Assembly (NCBI GenBank): GCA_000697475.1
Contig: JNEU01000829.1
Span: forward strand, 40,926 to 104,925
Length of the DNA: 64,000 bases
Reading direction: 5' to 3'
Source: Lichtheimia corymbifera B2541
Lineage: Eukaryota > Mucoromycota > Mucoromycetes > Mucorales > Lichtheimiaceae
In this document: piece after piece, positions 6,250 through 46,559 of the stretch
How the letters are laid out: every line of letters begins with the position of its first letter
How positions within the stretch are numbered: the stretch's first letter is position 1
Notes under the pieces: generated by a model
Seen by the model: the letters and a program-made list of their open reading frames with translations, nothing else
Told to the model about the DNA's origin: nothing
Databases searched by the model: none
Made by a program: the position numbers and the translations under genes

Positions 6250-7172
6250 ATGGCCTCCCGCTTCACTCGACTGACCACTCTTGCTCCCAAGGTACAACCT
6301 TGTGCTTTTATTATCAATACAACCCTATTTACGTCTATGATATGATATCTCCTTGTTTCTAGTTGGCTCGTGGCTATGCTGCTGCCGCTGCTCCCAAGGT
6401 AAGAAACGGGATATATAGATATGGATACAGATAGAGAGAGCGACATGCCCATGAACAACCCGCATTGACCCTCCCATGCGTAGCCTCCTGTCACTCTTTT
6501 CGGTCTTGATGGTCGTTACGCTACTGCTCTTTATACCGCTGCTGTTCGTCAAAACTCGCTTGATGCCGTTGAACGCGATCTTACTCAGCTCCAGAACCTC
6601 ATCAGCAAGGACAAGACTGTTCAAGCCTTCCTTGAAAACCCCACTGTCACCGGTCAAGCCAAGGCTGATGGTATCAAGGCTCTTCTCGCCAAGGCTGGCA
6701 ATGTGAACGCTTTGACCAAGAACCTCTTTGAAGTATTGAATGAAAACAGCCGTCTTGATCAAACCGCCAAGGTCCTCAACGCTTACGCTGAATTGATGAG
6801 CGCTCACCGCAACGAACTTCCTTTGGTTGTCACCTCCGCCAAGGTAAGAAAACTCATGATGATGGAATAAGGATAAAGGCTTATTATGGTATATAGGAAT
6901 TGGATAAGTCTACTTTGAACAAGATTGCCGACTCTCTTCAAAAGAGCAAGCTCGCTGAAGGCAAGAAGCTTTTGATCTCCAACAAGGTCAAGCCTGATAT
7001 CCTCGGTGGTATCCTCGTTGAGATTGGTGACAAGAGCATTGATTTGACTGTCTCTGGAAAGGTTGCTAAGCTCAACAAGCTCGTCACTGGTAAGAAAAGA
7101 GAGGGATAGGATATAGCATTGCCAAATGATGTTAATGCAAATGGGTGTTCTCCTTTTGTAGATTCCGTGTAA
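6250..7172 (+). CDS. ATP5: ATP synthase subunit 5 / OSCP, mitochondrial
   Basis: OSCP links the F1 head of ATP synthase to the peripheral stalk. Five exons are read: 6250-6291, 6363-6398, 6484-6843, 6897-7089 and 7162-7172, with GT-AG introns throughout, giving 213 aa. The first two tiny exons encode an Arg/Ala-rich mitochondrial presequence (MASRFTRLTT, then LARGYAAAAPK). Mature OSCP starts at PPVTLFGLDGRYATALY, a family hallmark, and ends with the conserved segment PDILGGILVEIGDKSIDLTV followed by a basic helix. The last exon holds only the end of the final split codon, two codons and the stop. Length and motifs are normal. The first ATG with a presequence was taken as the start. Confidence 0.95.
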
Positions 7173-7464
7173 ATGACTAGCATATTGATTGTATCATGAT
7201 TTTTTCCATAAACAATGAGGATGTCTATTCTTATCGTTTGTAACAAAGAGTACTTGAGGACCCCATTTCTTTTGATCATTGCTTAATTAAACGTTGGCAT
7301 GTGTATCTGTTGCCTAGCAACCAGCCAATGCTTATGTATCATCCCATTTTTTTACACGCCACGTCCAATTCCCAATTCATCTCTTTCGAGATACATCATC
7401 ATGATCCATAGTGTTGTCCCTGAAGGGGGGTAATGTTTAATGACAGCGAAAAAACGTAAAAGGC
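7173..7464. other. Short gap between convergent genes
   Basis: The 3' flanks of the OSCP gene and the eL36 gene meet here. No other feature was seen. Confidence 0.5.
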
Positions 7465-7939
7465 TTAGTGCTGACGACGGGACTCGGCGATGACACCCTG
7501 GAGCTCGTCAATTTTCTTCTTGGCGCGAACAAAGGTACCAAGCTATAGAAGAATGTCAATATCTACGTATCAATATAGTCAATAAAGAAACAACGTACTC
7601 TTCTCTTGGTGAGCTTCTTGGCACGCTTGTCACGGGAGTTCTTGATCAATTCCATAACACGGCGTTCGTAGGGAGCGAAACCGGCAACTTCACGGACGAT
7701 GCTGCGAACGAAAGCGGTGCGCTTGCCAATAGCCTAGTCAATGTGAATGGGGTTGTTGTTGTCGAAATGAGTTGACTGTATTCATCATCATCCATCCATC
7801 CATCCATCCATCTATCTACAGGATGAATCCATCCATTACATACGCGACGTTGAGAAGGCTTCTGCTTGAGCTCACGACGGGTGGTGATGTGGCCCTTGTT
7901 GATACCAACGGCGATGCCTGACTTTTGCTGGGGTGCCAT
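7465..7939 (-). CDS. RPL36: 60S ribosomal protein eL36
   Basis: eL36 is a component of the large ribosomal subunit. The protein starts [17 protein letters not shown], the family N-terminus. A central block includes [20 protein letters not shown] and a basic [10 protein letters not shown] run, and the C-terminus is [15 protein letters not shown]...ESRRQH. Two introns split it: one after the codons for SQRR (GTATGT), one after KRR (GTACGT). About 100 aa, the usual size. The first intron contains an ATCC microsatellite. The stop is the TAA complement at 7465-7467. Confidence 0.96.
7789..7812. repeat. (ATCC)n tetranucleotide microsatellite in eL36 intron 1
   Basis: About six tandem CATC/ATCC units inside the intron, followed by related imperfect units to about 7835. 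Confidence 0.85.
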
Positions 7940-8136
7940 TTCGAAAGAGAGGGGGTTCCAATGGAGTGTCTTGGAGTGCCACTTGAACACCAACCACCAC
8001 CCCCTGAGCTTGAAATCTCAGCTGCTGCCCACTCACTACTTTCTTTATTCCCCAAATCTATGTATGCATTTCTCCTTTTTTTTATTATGATGCTTCTTTT
8101 CAACAACGATGAATGATGATGGGATGGTATTTATAG

Positions 8137-9230
8137 CTAATGTGTTGAAGTGAATCCTGAACGCGTGGGGGCAATCACGGATCGAACAGTTTGGTTCATG
8201 TAATTGGAGGATACCATGGTAGGTCGATGGCGTAAAGTAACTCGTAAAATACGACCTATATGATATATATATCAATAAATTGTCTCCCTCTCTCTCTATC
8301 AAACAACTTACCATCCGCCACTTCATTATCCAATTTGTTGATACACTCCAATGCTGCACTCTTTTGAGTAAACTCGATCTCTGCTTCACCAAAAGATCGT
8401 CCCGTCCTATCCACCAATACTTCACAATGGGCCACTTGTCCAAATTGAGCACAGATCATCTAACATGTGTGTATCAGTATCAAATCTCCATCTTTTTCGA
8501 TCCACGTCTCTCTTACCCTGATATCTTCTGCATTGGCGGAAGGATCCAAATTGCTAATGACCACGGTAGCAGGGCCAGATTCTCCTCGGATATTGATGCC
8601 ATGAACATTACCACCACCCATGGATGATCCCATCGGGGAACCAAAAGAAGAGGATGCACCATACGAAGCGCCACGGATCGAAAGTCCACGATGCATCACA
8701 CCTTGCTGTTGTGCATTGTTGTGTCCCACTCCTCCAATCATGGATGGTAACTTGTTGTTGTTGTTGTTGCTATTGTTGATGTTGTTGTTATTTCTACGAG
8801 AAACCTTCTTCGTGATGACGATGCTGGCTGGATCAACTACATTCTTGTTGGTCTTTTCTTGTTTGGATTGCTGACCCTATATATACATCAAACTCTATCA
8901 GTGCCTTGTCAAAAAGTGAGTGTGAGTGTGCGTATGTACCAGTCGAGATGATAGATTGGTGTTGGGACGTGGTGCTGATGCCTTGCCAATAGACTTTTTT
9001 GACTTGTTGCTTACGCCGAGATTGACATTGTTGCCGTTCTTGAGCTTGTCGTTGCGTCGCTGTCTTCCATTGCCACCGGCATTCTTGTTCTGATTCTTGT
9101 TGGATTGCTTTTTGGCGTTATTGCCTCGCTGGTTTTTCTGTTGCGATTTCCTTTGTTGTTGCTGTTGTTGTCGACCACCTTTGTTTCGCTTCTTAATTAT
9201 GTCATCGAGGGGACGATCGATATCCATCAT
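8137..9230 (-). CDS. ALY/REF-type mRNA export adaptor (Yra1-like)
   Basis: ALY/REF proteins bind mRNA and the helicase UAP56/Sub2 to promote nuclear export. The N-terminus, MMDIDRPLDDIIKKR, matches the UAP56-binding motif. A long Gln/Asn/Lys/Arg-rich disordered region follows, then one RRM. The RRM starts at TVVISNLDPSANAEDIR, continues after an intron with FGQVAHCEVLVDRTGRSFG and EIEFTQKSAALECI, and ends after another intron with GRILRVTL. The tail after the RRM is short. Four exons are supported by in-frame joins, including VADG|RILRV. An in-frame upstream ATG exists at about 9276-9278, but the double Met at 9225-9230 places the motif at the true N-terminus. The stop is at 8137-8139. Confidence 0.85.
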
Positions 9231-9384
9231 TGTGGTAGAATAGAGTAGTAGAAGAGAGAAAGGCCGTTTGAACTCCACACACCCACCCGCAGCCTCCCAA
9301 TCTTCTTGCAGGAAATTGCCTAAATAAAATCGTCACATGCTCTCTCCATCCAACACATGTCCACTGTTGACAGTTGTTTTATTC

Positions 9385-11527
9385 TTAATCGCCTGAGAGA
9401 GGTTTATCTCTAGGATAGTAGATGCCATGAGGTGCACCCGATAAATCATAACCTTGTTTACCAGCGCCATTGCCTGATGATGGTAAGCCAAGCTTTTCAC
9501 ATTGAGCAGCTAGCTCAGGAGGCACTTGCATGATTTCTTGTGCTTGATCAGGTGCTTCTATCATGACAACACCCATACCCGAATAGAAATGCCAATCGAT
9601 ATGACAGTGGAATAACCATGCTCCTGGATTATCAGCTCGATAGCGGATCACAGCAAATGATTGGCCATGGACACGCAATGTATCTCGCAATACAGGCTTC
9701 TCTAGATTCCACTTGCCAACCGATGTGCCATCACCTTCATGATACATTTGTTTTTTGTGTGTGCCTCGAGCCACCACTTGGAACTTGTGGCCATGCAAAT
9801 GGACTTTTAAAGTTGTTAGCACCTTTGTGTAGCATAAGATAGTTGTAATACATACATGGATGGGCATCTTCGTCATAATTGTTAACAACAAGCTCCACGA
9901 ATTCAAGGTGTTTGGTAATATATGCATTGCTTTGAGGACCATAAATTCGATGATCGTTTGCCAACCCTCCCATTGTGAGCTCGGAAAATAGCATGGGCGT
10001 CAATGGCTTGATAAAAGGAATACGATTCACCATGCCCCGATTAAGACCATCGGTGGTAATACCTTCTTCGATTGTGATATTGAGCGTTCTATCAGGATCA
10101 ACGCTGTTTTGATCTGCCAGAGAGCGTAAATTGAAATCATCAAATTGACTTTTCATGCCGATATCTTCACTAGGTGCGTAGTTGTCATGCGAGTCGTCAT
10201 AAATGATCTTGGCCGTGATATCTGTTACCACAGATGATGGTTGTTAGTATTGATAAATGAATGACCTGGCAGGCATCTTTTACTTACTGGGATTGAGACC
10301 ATTAAGCGGTAGATCAAATTGATTTTTGTCCATGTCGAAATGCATATAGTAATTCAAATCGGTCTTTTCTTTGGCCTTGACAAGAATGGACATGCGTTGG
10401 GCCACAGTGAGATACGCGTTTTTGGCTCGATAGGGTTCAGTGTAAGCCTATCGAATTGTGTTAGTGCCACATGCGTATAAAAACAAGCTGTTACCACTTA
10501 CCCCATCGGTTTCGATGATGTCAAATTCATGCCCGTCGATGCTAAAATAGAACGTGGTGTAGCCTCCCATATTGATTAATCTCAAGCGGTATGTCTTTCC
10601 AGGCTCGAAATGAAATTTGGCATCTTGTTGATCATTCACAACACCCGATTCTATAGTTCCATGTTGTCAGTGAGCTCGTTCATGAATGAGGTAGCGCTTT
10701 TCCTTACGCGGCATTGGTTCAGCGGCGTCGAGGTTTTGCTTGCTAAGGAACCATTCTGCATTCACTCGCGACTGATTATGGTACCAATCTATATCACACA
10801 CGCAAAAAGTTGGTTGTCATTTCCTCATCTCAGAATGTTATCGTGTATATTACCGGACACAGTAATGATCAGCTCTTCGTCATATTGGTCCTTGTAAGGA
10901 TCGTCGGGATCATGGATGATAAATGGCGTGCGAAGACCATCGAGGTATTGAGTCTAAAATGAAAATAGCTTAGCAGGGTTGACAGCATCATTGAAGCATG
11001 TAAAAATCACGTCGACATGGCTGTGGATCCAATAAGTGCCAGTTTGGTCCCCCAAGTCATACTCATAGGTGCGTAACTCGCCTGGTGGTACGCCACTATA
11101 ATCCATGTCAGTATTAAACTTGCGAGTGTATTGCTATTCCATCTTACCATTCTGACACACCAGGACCTCCATCTTGATAACTGGTACCGTTTTGATATAG
11201 ACCATGTGCATGTAAAGTAGTAGTCCAGTCATCAAGTTGATTGCGGACATTGATGACTACTGTATCACCTTTTTCAGCTTCAACAATGGGTAACCTACAA
11301 TCATGTATGTCATCCTTTATATCAGCAAAAGCATCCTGTGTACGTATGTGTGTATTTACTTACGGCCATTGTCCATTTACGCCAACCACCACGCGTTCAA
11401 ACAGCCCATCTGGATTGCCGGTTGTATAGGTGACATCCCAATTGTGCTCCACTCGCTTTGCTTTGGTTAAAGCCGCTAATAGTAGGATCAACCCACTATA
11501 ATGTATCACTGGTAGCATAAACACCAT
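9385..11527 (-). CDS. Fet3-like multicopper oxidase without a C-terminal membrane anchor
   Basis: Multicopper oxidases of the Fet3 group oxidise Fe(II) for high-affinity iron uptake. The N-terminus, MVFMLPVIHYSGLILLLAAL, is a signal peptide. Three cupredoxin domains carry all four copper motifs: HAHGL, HSH in GTYWIHSHVDV, HLHGH, and HCHIDWH with a downstream Met. YKDQYDEELIITV matches the Fet3 region with the acidic residue used in iron oxidation. At least eight introns interrupt the gene. Oddity: the frame ends soon after the last copper site (GIYYPRDKPLSGD), with an AATAAA signal immediately 3', so the membrane helix usual in Fet3 is missing. No Ftr1 permease is nearby. It may be a soluble ferroxidase or a laccase-like enzyme. 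Confidence 0.85.
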
Positions 11528-36436: not shown

Positions 36437-37821
36437 TTAGCATCTTTTAGCACGCCGACGACGTAATGTACCGTTGGCCACCTTTTCTTGCCGAGTGACA
36501 CGACGTGATCGCATATGAGCATGGCGGTTACGATACGAATCCACCGCACGTTGAATTAAACCTCTTCGACCACAAAGTTGTTCTTGATTCAGCCAACATA
36601 ATTTCCATCCAAGTTCATTACAGCTGGTCTCATATTCCCAACGATTGCCATCATATTCTTCCTTGTCCACATTGGCTCGTGGATAAATCTATGCAGCATA
36701 GAGTAATGAGTCTCATGTGTATATGCAAATAAAAAAGATGATGTTATACTACATACTGCATTGACCATGCGGAAATCAAGTGGAATGTCTTCAAGTGGAC
36801 AATTTGCTGCATCGGTGCGCACTGTATATTCCTTGACAAGACGATCATGCGAGTACAAGAATGTAATATGTTCAATTCCATTGATAGTATGAGCCACAGG
36901 TTCATGAGCAGAAAGTGAGACCACTGATGCGACCGATGGCTGAGATGATGTACGTCGGCGATACGTTCTTCCAGGTGTTGATTTTCTGCGTCCTGTGGAT
37001 GATGGTTTGGTAATAGCATTATTATTTTCAACAAGGTTGGATCCAATGGCTATGCTGTGTCGATTTGCACGATTCATGTTGGGTTGAGAAGGAGGAAACG
37101 GCCATAAACTTGACATGTCAAAAGGATTCATCTCGGGTGGAGATTGATGTTGTTTGCCCAAGGTTGTATTATTATTAGTATGGGTGGAGGGAATACCATT
37201 AGTAGGATGGCTGGGTGTCATGCCGAGCCATGGAGGAGGAAAATGCTGTTGTTGTTGTTGTTGTTGTTGTTGTGTAAATGCCAATGACGATGGATGATGA
37301 TTCCCCGTAGCAGGTGATTCAACAGGTGGTGTAGGAGGGAAAAAGACACCAGCAGCAGATGCAGTGGAAGTGATACCTTGGTTGGGTGCAGCAGCATTGC
37401 TTTGTTGCCAGCCTAACGGCATTTGCCAAGCCTTGTCAAACGATAACCCGAATGTGGATGGAATACCTGCACTTGTGTTGTTGATATTTGGTTGTGATTG
37501 TGGATTGACAGATGTTTGCAAAAGCGACAAGCATGAATTCGTATCCAGCGGATCCACCAACTCGGATTGTTGTGGTTGTTGTGGTTGTGGCGGTGATGTA
37601 TTATCATTACAAGTGGTGAACATGGGCATGTTTATATGATTGTTGCTTGCCGACAAGAGAGCATCTTGTGGTGACATGAACCCACCAAACAGCTTATCTT
37701 TGTTGGGCGTCGTAGGGTCACTAGCAGGCATAGAGGTATCTCCACCACCAGTAGTCTCAGTGGGACCCATAGCTTGGGCAAGAGCAACGGCTACATCGAG
37801 TGGATCAGACGTGGGGTCCAT
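36437..37821 (-). CDS. DUF8032-like conserved fungal protein
   Basis: The N-terminal 270 residues are disordered, rich in Pro/Asn/Gln/Ser, with a run of nine glutamines. A short basic stretch (GRRKSTPGRTYRRR) follows. The conserved part starts at HTINGIEHITFLYSHDRLVK, crosses an intron after FRMVNAV, and continues through EEYDGNRWEYETSCNELGWK, RRGLIQRAVDSYRNRHAHMR and SRRVTRQEKVANGTLRRRR to the stop. This matches, from memory, a domain (DUF8032) found in many fungi; its function is unknown, and the basic, Arg-rich end suggests nucleic-acid contact. The start MDPTSDPLDVAVAL at 37821 was chosen. The frame extends to 37938, but that part looks like leader. Stop at 36437-36439. Confidence 0.75.
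37246..37274. repeat. (TTG)n microsatellite encoding poly-Gln
   Basis: Tandem TTG units on the plus strand, read as CAA on the minus strand, encode the glutamine run of the DUF8032-like protein. Confidence 0.85.
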
Positions 37822-38032
37822 TGTAGTATTTGTTTGCTTTTGATGTTTGTTGACAAGCGTAAACAAAGAAAGAAAGGCAAATTGATCATCGCGATCGATT
37901 TTTTTGTCTCGTTCTCGGCAAATAAGGTCTGAAACCACAAGGTAAAACTATGGATAAATGCTTTTTATTTTATACATGTATTTCTAATGCACAAATGTAA
38001 ACTCTCCGATCCATTATCAATCACTATTACTA

Positions 38033-40456: not shown

Positions 40457-42250
40457 ATGATTGACGGAACAAGTACAGACCATCTTCCTCAACATGATGC
40501 TCTCAACCGTATCATCAGAACGAATCCAACCAACAACAGCAACGACGACCATGACGAATCACGGTAATACTCGGCTCTCTATTGAACACAAGTTGATATT
40601 GATTCCCCTTGTTTTCAAAGCCATGATAACCTAATAGAATCGACTGAGCAAAGCCCAGCAGCAGTTTCAGGAACCAATGATGCAGATAGTTCCTCTGGTT
40701 CCGTTATGAGGACACAAGCAGCCTTTGTCAACAAACTATACAAGTATGTCACACACTCTCTTTATCCTTCACTCTCTATTCACACACATCAAATAGAATG
40801 CTGGAAGATCCATCCATTCATCATCTTATCTCATGGTCTGAGAATGGCGAATTGTTCAGCGTCAGCAACCCAACATCTTTCTCCAAGGTGGTTCTTCCTC
40901 AATACTTTAAGCACAACAACTGGCAAAGCTTTGTTCGTCAACTCAATAGTAAGTTGCCTATGAAGAGGAGTGCTCTACCTTTATCTCATCTCCATGTATA
41001 TATATATATATATTTTAGTGTATGGGTTTCATAAAGTCAATGACATGATCCATTCCAATCTCACGAATGAAAACCAAAACTGGGAGTTCCGACATCCTTC
41101 TTTCAAACGAGGAGCCGTGGATGATCTCAAAAACATCAAGCGAAAAAGTGCCAAATCCCGTCATCAATCTCAGTCGCGTATGCATTTGCCGACCTCACAG
41201 TTCAGTGATGCAGACGACTACCTCTATGGACCCATGTACAAGCGAATCGTCAGCACAGAAGAACGTTTGCATAATGCGTTGGCGGCGTTTGAAGTGTTGC
41301 AGAACGAAGCAACGACGTTACGCAATGTCATCTCCGGTCAGCAAGAGGTGAGCAAGGAGAGAAGGTGTGGGATCGGTGAATTTCACAATTTGTTTGACAA
41401 AGAATGGATGGACGGATGGATTCTTCTAGATCATTAGTGGTGTTGTAAGTCTGCTGATGTCACTCTATCAAAAACAAGGTAAGGACACAGATGATTGGAT
41501 CCATCATGTGATCTGATGACCTCTTACTCCTACATATAGGTGATACACCACACATTATAAAAGGTAAAACTGGATACTCTTTGGAATGCTTGGGATAATA
41601 ACAAATTACATAGCCGAAGGGATCCAGAAAAGAATCAAGGTCTTGTCAGATCAAATGGCTTCAATACCACCTACATCCTCCCGCTTTGCTCCAGACATGT
41701 CACAACAGCAACGATTACCATCCATCACTTCAGGGCCGTCTTCATTTGCAAATGGATTTGATACGACCACGACCACAACAACAACAGCCACTACCACCAG
41801 CACCATGAGCTATCCTACTGCTTCACCATACAACAACAACAATAACAACAATACCCCAGACCCTGTACCTACTCGAATATCTTCATCATCACTTCAAGGC
41901 AATGTCCACGATAACAATGCACCGCGACTACCTTTAAGCGAGTCAACTTTTCTGAATGGCAACGGTAAGAGGAACATGATGGCTTTACGTTCTATTCTTA
42001 TACTCTATCTTTTAGGAAATGATAATCATATACAAAGGCATTCGTCCATTCTCAGCTTCGGTAGCCGGTCTCAACTATTAAATCCACAGCTACCATCCTC
42101 GCAATCTTTCTCATCATCGATATCCCCCAGTAAGTTTCACCTCCGTCTTCCTCATTGACTGGCATGTCCATCTTGCTGACAAGATAAACAATGTTAGGTC
42201 AAAGTGCAAAAGGAAAAGGAGTGAAAAGGATCCGAGCAGAAGATTTATAA
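40457..42250 (+). CDS. HSF-type DNA-binding transcription factor
   Basis: Heat-shock-factor-type proteins bind nGAAn repeats or related sites. After a short acidic, Asn-rich N-terminus the winged-helix domain begins at [20 protein letters not shown]. It continues [20 protein letters not shown] and [19 protein letters not shown], which contains the recognition helix, and ends [15 protein letters not shown] coiled-coil region follows ([20 protein letters not shown], later [15 protein letters not shown]), then a Ser/Thr/Asn-rich tail with TACAAC/ACC microsatellites. The last exon ends KRIRAEDL with TAA at 42248-42250. About nine exons, two of them very short (41540-41565 and 41615-41642). No response-regulator receiver domain was seen, so it is not a complete Skn7. 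Start: first ATG in frame after an upstream ATG that stops after four codons. Confidence 0.87.
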
Positions 42251-43199
42251 CCAAGTGTTGGATGCTGGATCTCTTTGCAACGACGGTATCATGGAGCAAC
42301 GGTGTTTTTGTTTTGGATCAGAGAGCTTTCTATACCTATACCTTGAACAATCCTTGGCCCATTTTGTAACCCTTCTTGATGATGGATTCATAGAATAAAT
42401 TGTCTGGATGGTCTCCGATACGTGTGCATGTGTGAGCAATCATCAGGCCGTAAAACTTGTATATCTGCGTGTTCTTGTTGTATCATGTACCTTACTACAT
42501 ATAAGCCTTGCCCTCTGAAATGGTTGGATCACTGGTATCATTTGTCACCTGTTATGCTCGCTAAAGCTTCCTAGTTACATAACAGCTGACAGATGCGATT
42601 CGCGAACGCTTTATGATGTATGATGTCCACCAATAATAATGCTGGATACAGAAGCTTGCTTCATTAAGTTTAAGGAATGACCTCTTCATATACCGTGCCT
42701 ACCTATGACAATTTTCAGCAAACGTTATCTTATGCAACCTTACATGAGAACGAACCATTCCATACATAACGCAGGCGGACGGACCTTACTATAGGGGAGC
42801 GATCCATTGTTGTGATGTAGCTTGAGACCGTTAGTAGCTCTCACACGGTCATGCGTTTGTAAGCTTAGTGATGCATGCGTATTATAAACCATTGAACGAC
42901 AACGAATAAACATAAGGCTCTCTTCCCAACTTCTTACCTTAGGGTACGGATGGACACGGTTTTGTCAAAGCGCTTGTTACCCTAGTGGTATTGAAGGAAG
43001 GACAGGTTGGCGACCGCGTTTTATGTATTTTTCTCCAACGTGAGAGTCTCCCTTGTGTATCTTATCCCTATGCACATTGTATCGCACGTACGTTGTGGGT
43101 GGTGTTCAGTTAGTGTAAACGCTGAGCATCACTGCAGTTGAAGATCCCATGCAACACCATTATGCACTTTAAACCAATAGTATTGTACGGTCCAGGTGG
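42251..43199. other. Intergenic, nothing recognised
   Basis: This lies between the HSF-type gene and the repeat island. Only short open frames without support are seen. Confidence 0.5.
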
Positions 43200-43456
43200 C
43201 TGTGTTACCCAAACAAGTCGCTCTGCATCTTGAGCTCTATTGAGGTCTAACTGATGACGATAAACAAAGACCACTCTCCATATAGCATAACGCTTACAGC
43301 ATATGTAAAACATAAAGGTGCCTGTATCTCTAAACTTTACAATGAAGCGTGGGCTCTTCAATCGAACAAAGTTGCGCGGCTGGGTGAAGCGCACCTTGTG
43401 TAGAAGTTTCACGATCGTCGTGGCCATTCTCAGATTCACCCAATGTCACCACCAGC
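43200..43456 (+). repeat. Left arm of a long inverted repeat (repeat unit copy 1)
   Basis: The inner part, 43270-43456 (187 bases), is the reverse complement of 43501-43687 with only two mismatches seen, both C versus T. The outer part, 43200-43269, still pairs with 43688-43759 but is much more diverged. Within it an ATG at about 43342 opens a short frame reading MKRGLFNRTKL that recurs in the other copies. The mirrored open frames on opposite strands at 43110-43439 and 43518-43718 are a direct result of this repeat. Confidence 0.92.
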
Positions 43457-43500
43457 CAAAGTAGATCGTGAGTCGACCTCTTGAATTTTTTTTCGACGAA
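43457..43500. other. 44-base spacer of the inverted repeat
   Basis: The spacer joins the two arms and contains a T8 run and a GTCGAC site. It shows no internal symmetry of note. Confidence 0.8.
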
Positions 43501-43759
43501 GCTGGTGGTGACATTGGGTGAATCTGAGAATGGCCACGACAATCGTGAAACTTCTACACAAGGTGCGCTTCACCCAGCCGCACAACTTTGTTCGATTGAA
43601 GAGCCCACGCTTCATTGTAAAGTTTAGAGATACAGGCACCTTTATGTTTTACATATGCTGTAAGCGTTATGCTATATGGAGAGTGGTGTTTGCTCATTGT
43701 CAAGTAGGTAGACCCTGATAGAGCGAAAGATGCAGAGGCACGTGTTTGTGTAACACAGC
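43501..43759 (-). repeat. Right arm of the long inverted repeat (repeat unit copy 2)
   Basis: This mirrors the left arm. 43501-43687 pairs almost perfectly; 43688-43759 pairs with gaps and substitutions. The outer match ends at GTAACACAG on this side and its complement on the left side. Confidence 0.92.
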
Positions 43760-43789
43760 TCATTTGCATGATACTTCACAATGAACACC

Positions 43790-43951
43790 CTTTTCCATAT
43801 AACATCACGCTTACAGCATAGTAAAAACATAAAGATGCCCATAACAAAAAATTCTACGATGAAACGTGGGGTCTACAATCGACCAAAGTTGCTCGTCGGG
43901 TCCGAAAGTAACTTGTCTAGAAGTTTCACGATCGAGGTGGCCAATCTCGGG
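43790..43951 (+). repeat. Diverged third copy of the repeat unit
   Basis: Same orientation as the left arm. It shares CATCACGCTTACAGCAT-like, ACATAAAGATGCC-like and AAGTTTCACGATCG-like blocks in the same order and spacing. The short frame here reads MKRGVYNRPKL and later SFTIEVANL, against MKRGLFNRTKL and SFTIVVAIL in copy 1. Confidence 0.8.
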
Positions 43952-44194
43952 GACGCTCCCATCCATTCATCATTTCTTATATATTTGGGCCGTTCGCATT
44001 CAAAGTTTTCATAATGAATCATATGGCTTTTAAATGAATGGAATTGATCAGCATGATGTAGAGAACCTTCTTACCAGGTTTCAAGTTCGAGAGTGTGAAT
44101 CCCAAGGTAAGTCATAGTAATTGACATTTCATGAATTTGGGCGGGTGCGGAAATTCCGTCCATCATAGTGAACCCCACATTATACCCCCCCCCA

Positions 44195-44310
44195 TTTCAA
44201 AATTTTCAAATGAAGTGTGGGTTCTTTATTAAGACAAAGTTGATCAGCATGCCCGAATGCATATTGTGTGCAAGTTTGAAATTGGAGGTGGGCAATCTCA
44301 AGATCATGGA
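44195..44310 (+). repeat. Highly diverged fourth copy of the repeat unit
   Basis: ATGAAGTGTGGGTTCTTTAT, an ACAAAGTTG block and GGAGGTGGGCAATCTCAAG line up with copies 1 and 3. The frame reads MKCGFFIKTKL and later ASLKLEVGNL. The 5' third of the unit is not recognisable here. Confidence 0.6.
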
Positions 44311-44529
44311 TCAATTACAGTGTTCATGCATTTATATGACAGTATCTGACAGCTCAACCCACTTTGATTTCCAGCTCTTCCACTCCCACCTTCTTGTCTT
44401 TCCTCTCATTCTCAATTGTTGCCCATTCAAGTACAACTACCACTATTACGTTGCTTCAATCCAACATGTCGATCCTGCAACTGTCTTGATTCGATTGCCT
44501 TTGACTGAATGGCAACTCCATGGCGTGTG

Positions 44530-44775
44530 CACAGCCGCCTTATCACTCTTCTACAACACAACACACGAGTCTCTTGACACAAAGTACGTTCTTGCACATT
44601 CCTCTGCCACAACCAATCGTCACAGCAGCCGCCATTAGCAAGGCCTCCACTCCATCGTCTCATGCAGCGTTCACAGCCTTGTCACTCTACTATAACACAC
44701 GCGCCTGCATACTTTTCTGCCGCGACCACGTAGCAACAGTTGCTATTAGCAAGGCCTTTAGTCCATTGTCTCACA
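44530..44775. repeat. Imperfect tandem duplication of about 105-135 bases
   Basis: Copy A (44530-44664) and copy B (44671-44775) share ACAGCC..TATCACTCT-like, TTCTGCC..AACC-like and ATTAGCAAGGCC..TCCAT.GTCTCA blocks in order. Copy B is shorter. No gene is recognised across it. Confidence 0.65.
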
Positions 44776-44908
44776 TTACTTGCAGCAACTTGATTTGACA
44801 CATACGATTCCAATAGATGGGATATCATATCAGCTATCACAATACAAGTAATCTTCACCTAGTTATGCATCAATGAAATGACCAAGAAAGAGATGGATCA
44901 GCAGCAGG

Positions 44909-45148
44909 ATGGGGAAGGAAGCATATCAGCAAGCGATCACATGGCTCGTTTCAACCAACCTACCGGATTTGAAATGGCTATGGATGGATGGGATCTTGGA
45001 ATTACTTGGTACGTCATTATCAGGAAGGATGAATAAGGCTGAGGATGATGATGGATTGATGAGAGGGCTAATATCTTTGACCCAAGGTTTTAGTGCTGTG
45101 GATTTGGAATACGCGAGTCAATGCACCCAACATCTTGTGCAATCATGA
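44909..45148 (+). pseudogene. Possible relic of an AAA ATPase lid domain
   Basis: An open frame of 79 codons contains LTQGFSAVDLEYA, which resembles the GFSGADL segment that begins the lid helices of AAA proteins. A preceding stretch (NLPDLKW...ILELLG) resembles the usual LPD...ILE spacing. No Walker motifs are present upstream, and the frame starts and stops abruptly. If real, it is a fragment; the similarity is weak and could be chance. Confidence 0.25.
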
Positions 45149-45601
45149 AGGATGCTTATGACGGCAGCAATCAAGAATACAACACCACAATTATCCCTGC
45201 CTCCCCTACATGATTCATCCGTATCTTAGTCAATATGCAATACTGTCCATTTGCCGTGTTCACTTGATAAACATTCACGCTACCATATTGTGCTATTCTT
45301 CGACCTTTTTTTTATTGAGTGGAGATTGGATAAAACGTATGTTCAGAAGGGAATCATGCTATCAGCCCATATGTTTAATGTATGTAGATCACTTGGGTTG
45401 GTGTCTGGGATGAAAGGAGGGAATAGAAATGTGGAGCATGGTACAGGGAGAGTGGATGGGTTGCCTGGCAACGCATTGTGCTCCGCTGTCAAGTGGAAAG
45501 CCAAATTTGGAAGTTGAGTCAGACCCCGCTGGGGCGAGGCGGTTCATGTAGGAAAGATGGGTGGAACCTACTGTCCCTTCTTTTCGAACGGCCACTGAAA
45601 A

Positions 45602-46232
45602 ATGGTATGTAGCTTGCATGACAAGTAAACGAGGGGATTCCATAGAGCAAAGGAGTGCGATATTAGAATGGATGAATGGATGGGTGAATGGATGAATGGA
45701 TTCATTCGATGGATGAAGAGATGAAGATATATGGATGATATATTACGACCACCCACGATTCCCCCATTTCGAGATTCACTCACATGCGCACGTTTCCACT
45801 ATAGACCAAGGGTACTACCTCGTTCGGTAAACGTCAGACCAAGACCCACACCTTGTGCCGTCGTTGCGGCAACCGCTCTTACCACAAGCAAAAGAAGACT
45901 TGTGCCAGCTGTGGTTATCCCGCTGCTAAGATCCGCAAGTGTAAGATATATATACATACACGTACGACTCGATGATATCGATGGCTTATTTGGGATTATT
46001 ATTATAGTCAACTGGTCTGAGAAGGCTAAGCGTAGAAAGACCACCGGTACTGGCCGCATGAGCCACTTGAAGGTTGTCCACCGCCGTTTCCTTAACGGTT
46101 TCCGCGAGGGTAAGAAATACACACCAGATACAGTTTTTGTTGGAATAAGGTGATTTTGACTCTCTTGGTTGATTGATTATAGGTTCCCAACCCGCTAAGC
46201 GTGGTGGCAAGGCTGCAGAGGCTTCCGCTTAA
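45602..46232 (+). CDS. RPL37: 60S ribosomal protein eL37
   Basis: eL37 is a zinc-binding protein of the large ribosomal subunit. The first exon is just the ATG at 45602-45604, followed by GTATGT. A 200-base intron leads to exon 2 at 45805, which reads [20 protein letters not shown] and includes both zinc pairs (CRRC and CASC). Exon 3 reads [20 protein letters not shown], and the last exon ends [14 protein letters not shown] with TAA at 46230-46232. Total about 92 aa, as expected. Placing the start codon alone on an exon fits the lack of any in-frame ATG next to exon 2 and the pyrimidine-rich leader just upstream. Confidence 0.93.
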
Positions 46233-46559
46233 ACATGTGTGTTCATTAACATGCGCGAATAAAAGGCTCCAATAAGCTGTTGGATTCCACGTTTATTGTT
46301 GTCAACTTATATGATGATTCGATAATGGATGACGGTGTATATGATACGACTTTATAATCCTCGTTTTTTTATTATGGATTATGAGAGATTTACAATGTAT
46401 GGGTGGAAAAAGGGTGTAATATAGACTCTTCATGTGATAATGCCTCGTTTATGCATATAAGCATAGTGTTGCCAGAGTGGTGTGCCTAGGTCATTCTGTA
46501 AATCCATTACCGAATGGAGTAAAGGGAATTGACTGAATTATCTTGTTTCTCTTCTCGAC
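46233..46559. other. Intergenic, eL37 3' flank and COG4 promoter
   Basis: A/T-rich sequence with an AATAAA signal at about 46258-46263 just after the eL37 stop. No other feature. Confidence 0.55.

Follow-up and report, generated by a model that had tools for sequence, protein, structure and literature searches.

Work on conversion between palindrome arms and on spacer inversion has usually relied on very short repeats or on a handful of large palindromes of sex chromosomes. Two published cases, as given in excerpts of the cited papers, fit this focus. In the human Y-chromosome palindrome P6, conversion homogenises the arms of one palindrome, and inversion occurs as well (PMC3723533); at short inverted repeats in yeast, template switching between the arms homogenises them and inverts the spacers (PMC8604942). 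Inverted repeats maintained in Caenorhabditis keep their inverted-repeat form while the sequence changes, according to excerpts of the corresponding paper (PMC1803023). The foldback transposon Tetris of Drosophila virilis is described, again in excerpts, as a non-coding element whose long inverted repeats harbour tandem repeats and whose middle is variable; it occurs in many rearranged forms, and satellite-like arrays arise from its internal repeats (PMC4079207). Each of these features has a likeness in the repeat family of the fungus Lichtheimia corymbifera that we describe here. The genome of this species has been reported to contain 4.7% repetitive elements, and the main text of the genome paper has no match for "palindrom" (PMC4133162). 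Titles and abstract openings, mostly of papers available without subscription, hold no such family in Lichtheimia or other Mucorales, and the consulted part of a paper on fungal hairpin small RNAs has no match for Lichtheimia or Mucor (PMC9757828).

We consider it likely that the palindrome analysed here forms the centre of a foldback-like repeat, non-coding and dispersed through the genome, in which partner arms occasionally overwrite each other, some of these events also inverting the spacer.

The palindrome and its surroundings

The window, a stretch of 64,000 nucleotides from contig JNEU01000829.1 of L. corymbifera B2541, carries fungal genes for a chitin synthase, COG4, an FtsH-type AAA protease and an RSN1-type channel. 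Relatives of the protein encoded at 36592-37944 come from Mucorales, with 71-92% identity in the top four; those with a species or genus name and the highest rank include Lichtheimia ornata, Dichotomocladium and Zychaea, all Lichtheimiaceae. The parts of the palindrome and the neighbouring features are listed in Table 1. A previous sequence-only reading had described 187-base arms with two differences around a 44-base spacer, and the arm alignment reproduces this exactly: the inner arms (43270-43456 and 43501-43687) are reverse complements that differ at 43375 and 43416, C versus T in both cases once complemented. Repeat finding extends the inner arms to 202 nt (43255-43456/43501-43702, 97% identity) and places the outer arms at 43199-43252/43706-43759 with 81% identity. 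The lower-identity continuation that had been noticed farther out was confirmed, with an outer-arm identity of about 80% (77-81% across three measures) and complementarity that ends at 43199/43760; the adjoining 100 bp at either end score -0.23, against -0.23±0.05 for shuffled sequence. The drop between the two parts is abrupt, as the reading had also noted. In 40-column windows of the arm alignment, identity is 0.73-0.83 in all three windows within columns 1-80, 0.90 at columns 61-100 and 0.975-1.00 farther inward, and is thus not uniform along the arm.

Table 1 Features of the palindrome and its surroundings, in positions of the window.
Feature	Position	Strand	Remarks
"End" module fragment	42693..42795	+	70% to locus L039, same direction as right half; module mapping
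Separate dispersed 349-bp repeat, TGTTG...CAACA	42808..43156	+	solo-LTR-like; outside palindrome family
Left outer arm (arm positions 1-56)	43199..43254	+	~80% complementary to right outer arm
Left inner arm	43255..43456	+	43270-43456 vs partner: 2/187 positions differ
44-bp spacer	43457..43500	.	conserved family-wide; both orientations occur
Right inner arm	43501..43702	-	repeat finding and arm alignment
Right outer arm, diverged	43703..43759	-	repeat finding and arm alignment
Junction between palindromic units, with ATTTGCAT	43760..43783	+	conserved in palindrome family
Third arm copy, truncated	43784..43948	+	direct orientation, 77%; repeat finding
"Mid" block, decayed sub-repeats	43949..44330	+	module mapping
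"Body" of repeat	44331..45457	+	genome copies, full-length and near-full-length, 68-80% identity

The window copy of the repeat retains the palindrome and the right half. Within its mid block lies a fourth, partial arm-like copy (44194-44300, 68.5%), and the block is also similar to itself (43999-44138 versus 44196-44333, 65.5%). Position 45457 is the point at which the window copy diverges; other copies run on into the end module. The 349-bp repeat, flanked by CCAT at 42804-42807 and 43157-43160 (read by eye), is inserted between the end module and the palindrome, directly to the left of the latter. It has dispersed copies of up to 97% identity, and a related copy in locus L033 (7629-7905) likewise adjoins an end module. 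This insertion, the third and fourth arm copies and the genome-wide recurrence described below were absent from the sequence-only reading.

Genome-wide spread, architecture and class

We searched the assembly (35.0 Mb in 432 contigs) for an exact palindrome-centre pattern, with 10 arm bases on either side of a gap of 30-52, and found 414 occurrences on each strand and none in a backward-read control. Since the pattern is self-complementary, 414 occurrences per strand correspond to 414 palindrome centres. DNA matches of the palindrome number at least 351, a lower bound from scoring 40 of 924 candidates. The first 50 listed of the 414 centres are spread over 32 contigs by hand count, so that, as far as contig distribution shows, a repeat confined to centromeres is unsupported. 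Eight of these 50 lie less than 1 kb from a contig start, for example C28:694, C61:503, C96:55 and C140:79, and arrays may therefore break the assembly.

Near-identical arms around a short spacer are a typical form of assembly artefact, and the eight listed centres close to contig starts would be in keeping with a fold-back of this kind at the window as well. However, the arms differ both internally and outwardly, the right flank is asymmetric and runs into a third arm copy, mid and body, and diverged homologues with the same spacer are present elsewhere in the genome. On these grounds, we regard a fold-back artefact as exceedingly improbable, the diverged relatives being many.

We mapped five modules (outer arm, inner arm, mid, body and end) on 24 stretches of 7.8-10 kb, 20 of them around high-scoring palindrome matches (L021-L040, the window being L021) and four around body matches (L041-L044). 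As the loci were chosen among high-scoring matches to the window and not randomly, the sample is biased. Loci share a layout with an array at the centre, where successive arms alternate in orientation, followed by mid, with its decayed sub-repeats, then body and end. The left flank mirrors the right in 8/20 loci (L023, L025, L026, L029, L031, L035, L036 and L037), and also in L041; the flanks run in the same direction in five (L021, L022, L030, L032 and L033), and the remaining 7/20 are one-sided, lack a clear arrangement or run into a contig end (L024, L027, L028, L034, L038, L039 and L040). Thus, the mirrored form is not universal. The usual array unit of about 520 bp comprises a short arm, the spacer, a full arm and a conserved junction of 16-26 bp, with ATTTGCAT in most; units are spaced 518-526 bp apart in C61, C66, C80 and C115. 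Many of the mapped loci have short arrays of these units, with several palindromes per locus. Arms at the array edges are a diverged version (67-71%) in several loci, such as L022, L023, L025, L031 and L041, and decayed sub-repeats covering roughly arm positions 131-234 stand in series outside the array centre. Taken as a family, the repeat is non-coding and foldback-like, with the structure [end-body-mid](-) / array of ~520-bp palindromic units / [mid-body-end](+). Two of the stretches around body matches, L043:286-1057 and L044:239-1010, contain an identical arrangement of facing end modules with about 225 bp between them, which suggests that this form is also copied as a unit.

The non-coding character of the arms agrees with their variation, which has no three-base periodicity (0.079/0.094/0.088), and coding arms were rejected. 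Rfam models gave no match at gathering thresholds in window positions 42000-46500, and a tRNA scan of the window by ARAGORN under the bacterial code was negative.

We compared the family with the traits of known repeat classes. Tandem sub-repeats within inverted repeats, a foldback trait, are present. So are a tandem array of a conserved monomer, which is a satellite trait, and two traits of a gene-converting palindrome, namely partner likeness and tract-like identity. No target-site duplication was detected at nine spans, where the best shared word of 5-6 bp is at chance level, in a test that is weak since the outer ends are poorly defined; simple transposon ends were rejected on this basis. 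The sequence-only reading had likewise seen no terminal target-site duplication and had concluded that this is not a simple cut-and-paste element, a fair statement for the 560-bp module, itself internal to a larger foldback-like repeat. Searching the genome for the MULE domain, the sole transposase family included, returned nine matches. With no target-site duplication at the nine spans and no transposase tied to the family, the term transposon rests on architecture and dispersal, and membership of the foldback class is not proven. Dispersal of the family would probably have depended on a transposase supplied in trans, as it does in non-autonomous foldback elements.

The dispersed arrays could instead be satellite DNA, in which a ~520-bp palindromic monomer changes copy number by unequal exchange and no transposable element is involved. 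Alternating-arm arrays with conserved junctions, multiple palindromes per locus and diverged arm versions at the array edges are all features that this explanation accounts for, but the arrays are embedded in a larger recurring mid-body-end structure, partly mirrored and common to loci. We hold a satellite origin to be possible but rather unlikely. It is compatible with conversion between arms and competes with the transposon part of our interpretation alone.

In L026, a 1.3-kb insertion (6475-7787) that has a poly(A) tail and carries a zinc-knuckle ORF lies inside an arm and is flanked by a duplication of about 15 bp of arm sequence; because this ORF sits in a separate insertion, it was rejected as the element's own gene. 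In five other places in the genome, the match to the L026 insertion query begins at residues 2-4, within the part of the query that comes from the arm. Other retroelements may therefore have inserted at about the same arm position, pointing to a possible target preference. In L030, genes of a non-LTR retroelement with a zinc knuckle and an endonuclease domain (7909-9998) directly follow a mid block of the palindrome repeat.

Likeness of partner arms and spacer orientation

Both inner arm ends were found for 37 palindromes, 36 of which were used; L026_7788 was dropped as its left arm is cut by the retroelement insertion. Partner arms share a longest identical run of 61.0 bp on average (n=36), compared with 33.6±1.8 bp for random left-right pairing, and none of 2000 permutations reaches 61.0. 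Identical runs of at least 100 bp occur in 8/36 partner pairs, in one of 80 pairs from different palindromes of the same locus and in 8/2440 between-locus pairs. With the partner pair of the window removed and the innermost part of every arm disregarded, runs of at least 70 bp are seen in 7/35 partner versus 4/2440 between-locus pairs (Mann-Whitney p=0.0045).

Specifically, 12 of the 36 palindromes have a run of at least 60 bp, and the starts and ends of these tracts differ in arm position: 72-176 (the window), 100-258, 90-165, 59-158, 158-258, 1-218 (twice), 59-119, 184-244, 169-258, 27-177 and 72-213. In L041, where both arms are short, alignment columns before about 59 belong to the flank and not to the arm. 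At p<0.01, 13/36 partner pairs have clustered mismatches, compared with 29 of 300 sampled between-locus pairs, and the patchiness of the latter indicates that some of it arises in other ways, for instance through uneven constraint or through exchange from one palindrome to another. The partner is the nearest relative of 16/72 arms by identity and of 17/72 by longest run, where chance predicts about one. The signal is thus genuine, but that the partner is nearest for just 16 of the 72 indicates that conversion is occasional and far from complete, and that the arms also owe their sequence to common descent or to exchange with other palindromes.

We next set the window against 50 full arms, each more than 60% alike to its outer arm. 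Between loci, identity among these full arms is 77.0±8.8% for the outer part and 86.0±4.2% for the inner part. In the window, the outer arms (77-81%) are at the between-locus outer level, whereas the inner arms (97%; 185/187 in the innermost part) are above the inner level. The identity drop is therefore best explained as the edge of a recently homogenised stretch on arms that are otherwise as different as those of separate loci, and arm-to-arm gene conversion is the process that, judging from sequence, best explains it. Between the two causes offered by the sequence-only reading, ongoing gene conversion is favoured by the partner-specific long tracts at varying positions, while recent inverted duplication is disfavoured by a palindrome and homologous spacer that recur family-wide. 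An inner palindrome newly formed over an older, decayed one would produce the abrupt step from about 99% to about 73-83% along the window arm. It would leave unexplained the same palindrome and homologous spacer at hundreds of sites, outer arms of the window that are in register with the family arm, and identical tracts at other positions in other copies, and we judge such a de novo duplication very unlikely.

The spacer sequence is conserved across the family and is present in both orientations. Polarity can be assigned where a palindrome has one short and one full arm and its outer flanks give the direction, as is the case for 14/37 palindromes; among these, spacer orientation relative to arm polarity splits 7 versus 7. 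The other 23 are uninformative (18 full-full, four short-short and one cut). Some polarised palindromes have innermost arm parts that are clearly unlike each other, which anchors the spacer in the assembly; they occur in both orientation classes, with L023_6191, L026_4285 and L036_2973 in one (innermost arms 71, 84 and 75%) and L030_6712 in the other (85%). The even split appears to reflect flipping.

These observations are consistent with a process in which the two arms of one palindrome would pair, either inside a single chromatid or across sister chromatids, or in which a polymerase would switch template between them. A stretch of one arm would then be overwritten by the other, and in some events the spacer would be inverted. 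At the window, the latest overwritten stretch may correspond roughly to the inner 187 bp, a limit that would have left the outer arms diverged.

Template switching at a hairpin during replication, as opposed to conversion induced by a double-strand break, could by itself both copy an arm and flip the spacer. Arm homogenisation and the presence of both spacer orientations in the family match what excerpts of the yeast work report for inverted-repeat arms (PMC8604942), and 3/12 long tracts (100-258, 158-258 and 169-258) reach the centre. However, the other nine stop short of it, and the yeast arms are described there as only ~7-16 bp long. We therefore entertain replication-based switching tentatively, and retain conversion between partner arms as the preferred reading.

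Comparison with known systems

A speculative and rather doubtful proposal is that the palindromes act as standing sites of intramolecular recombination, with overwriting and with flips frequent enough to randomise orientation, and that they perhaps also serve as sources of hairpin RNA for RNAi and as preferred landing sites for a retroelement. With about 400 palindromes of intermediate length, this small fungal genome offers natural replicates for tract length, tract position and flip frequency, and the family would add to the cases in which satellite-like growth takes place within a foldback-like repeat.

Set beside the systems introduced above, the family differs from each in scale or in structure; the particulars of those systems are again taken from excerpts of the papers. 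Tetris has target-site duplications of 8-10 bp and tandem repeats of ~220 bp in its inverted repeats (PMC4079207), whereas no duplication was found for the Lichtheimia family at the spans covered, and its array unit is itself a palindrome that stands at the centre of the structure. The Caenorhabditis repeats involve gene pairs and intergenic sequence and do not form a dispersed repeat family (PMC1803023). In P6, the arms are ~100 kb long and inversions are rare relative to conversions (3 versus 56 events; PMC3723533); in contrast, the Lichtheimia arms measure ~200-260 bp, the copies are dispersed and number in the hundreds, and the two spacer orientations are equally frequent. Compared with the short arms of the yeast repeats (PMC8604942), identical runs in the Lichtheimia family extend over 60-218 bp. 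By analogy with these cases, the palindrome probably works like an arm-converting palindrome with occasional inversion, for which the known mechanisms, as far as excerpts of the two papers describe them, are gene conversion as in Y-chromosome palindromes (PMC3723533) and template switching as in yeast (PMC8604942).
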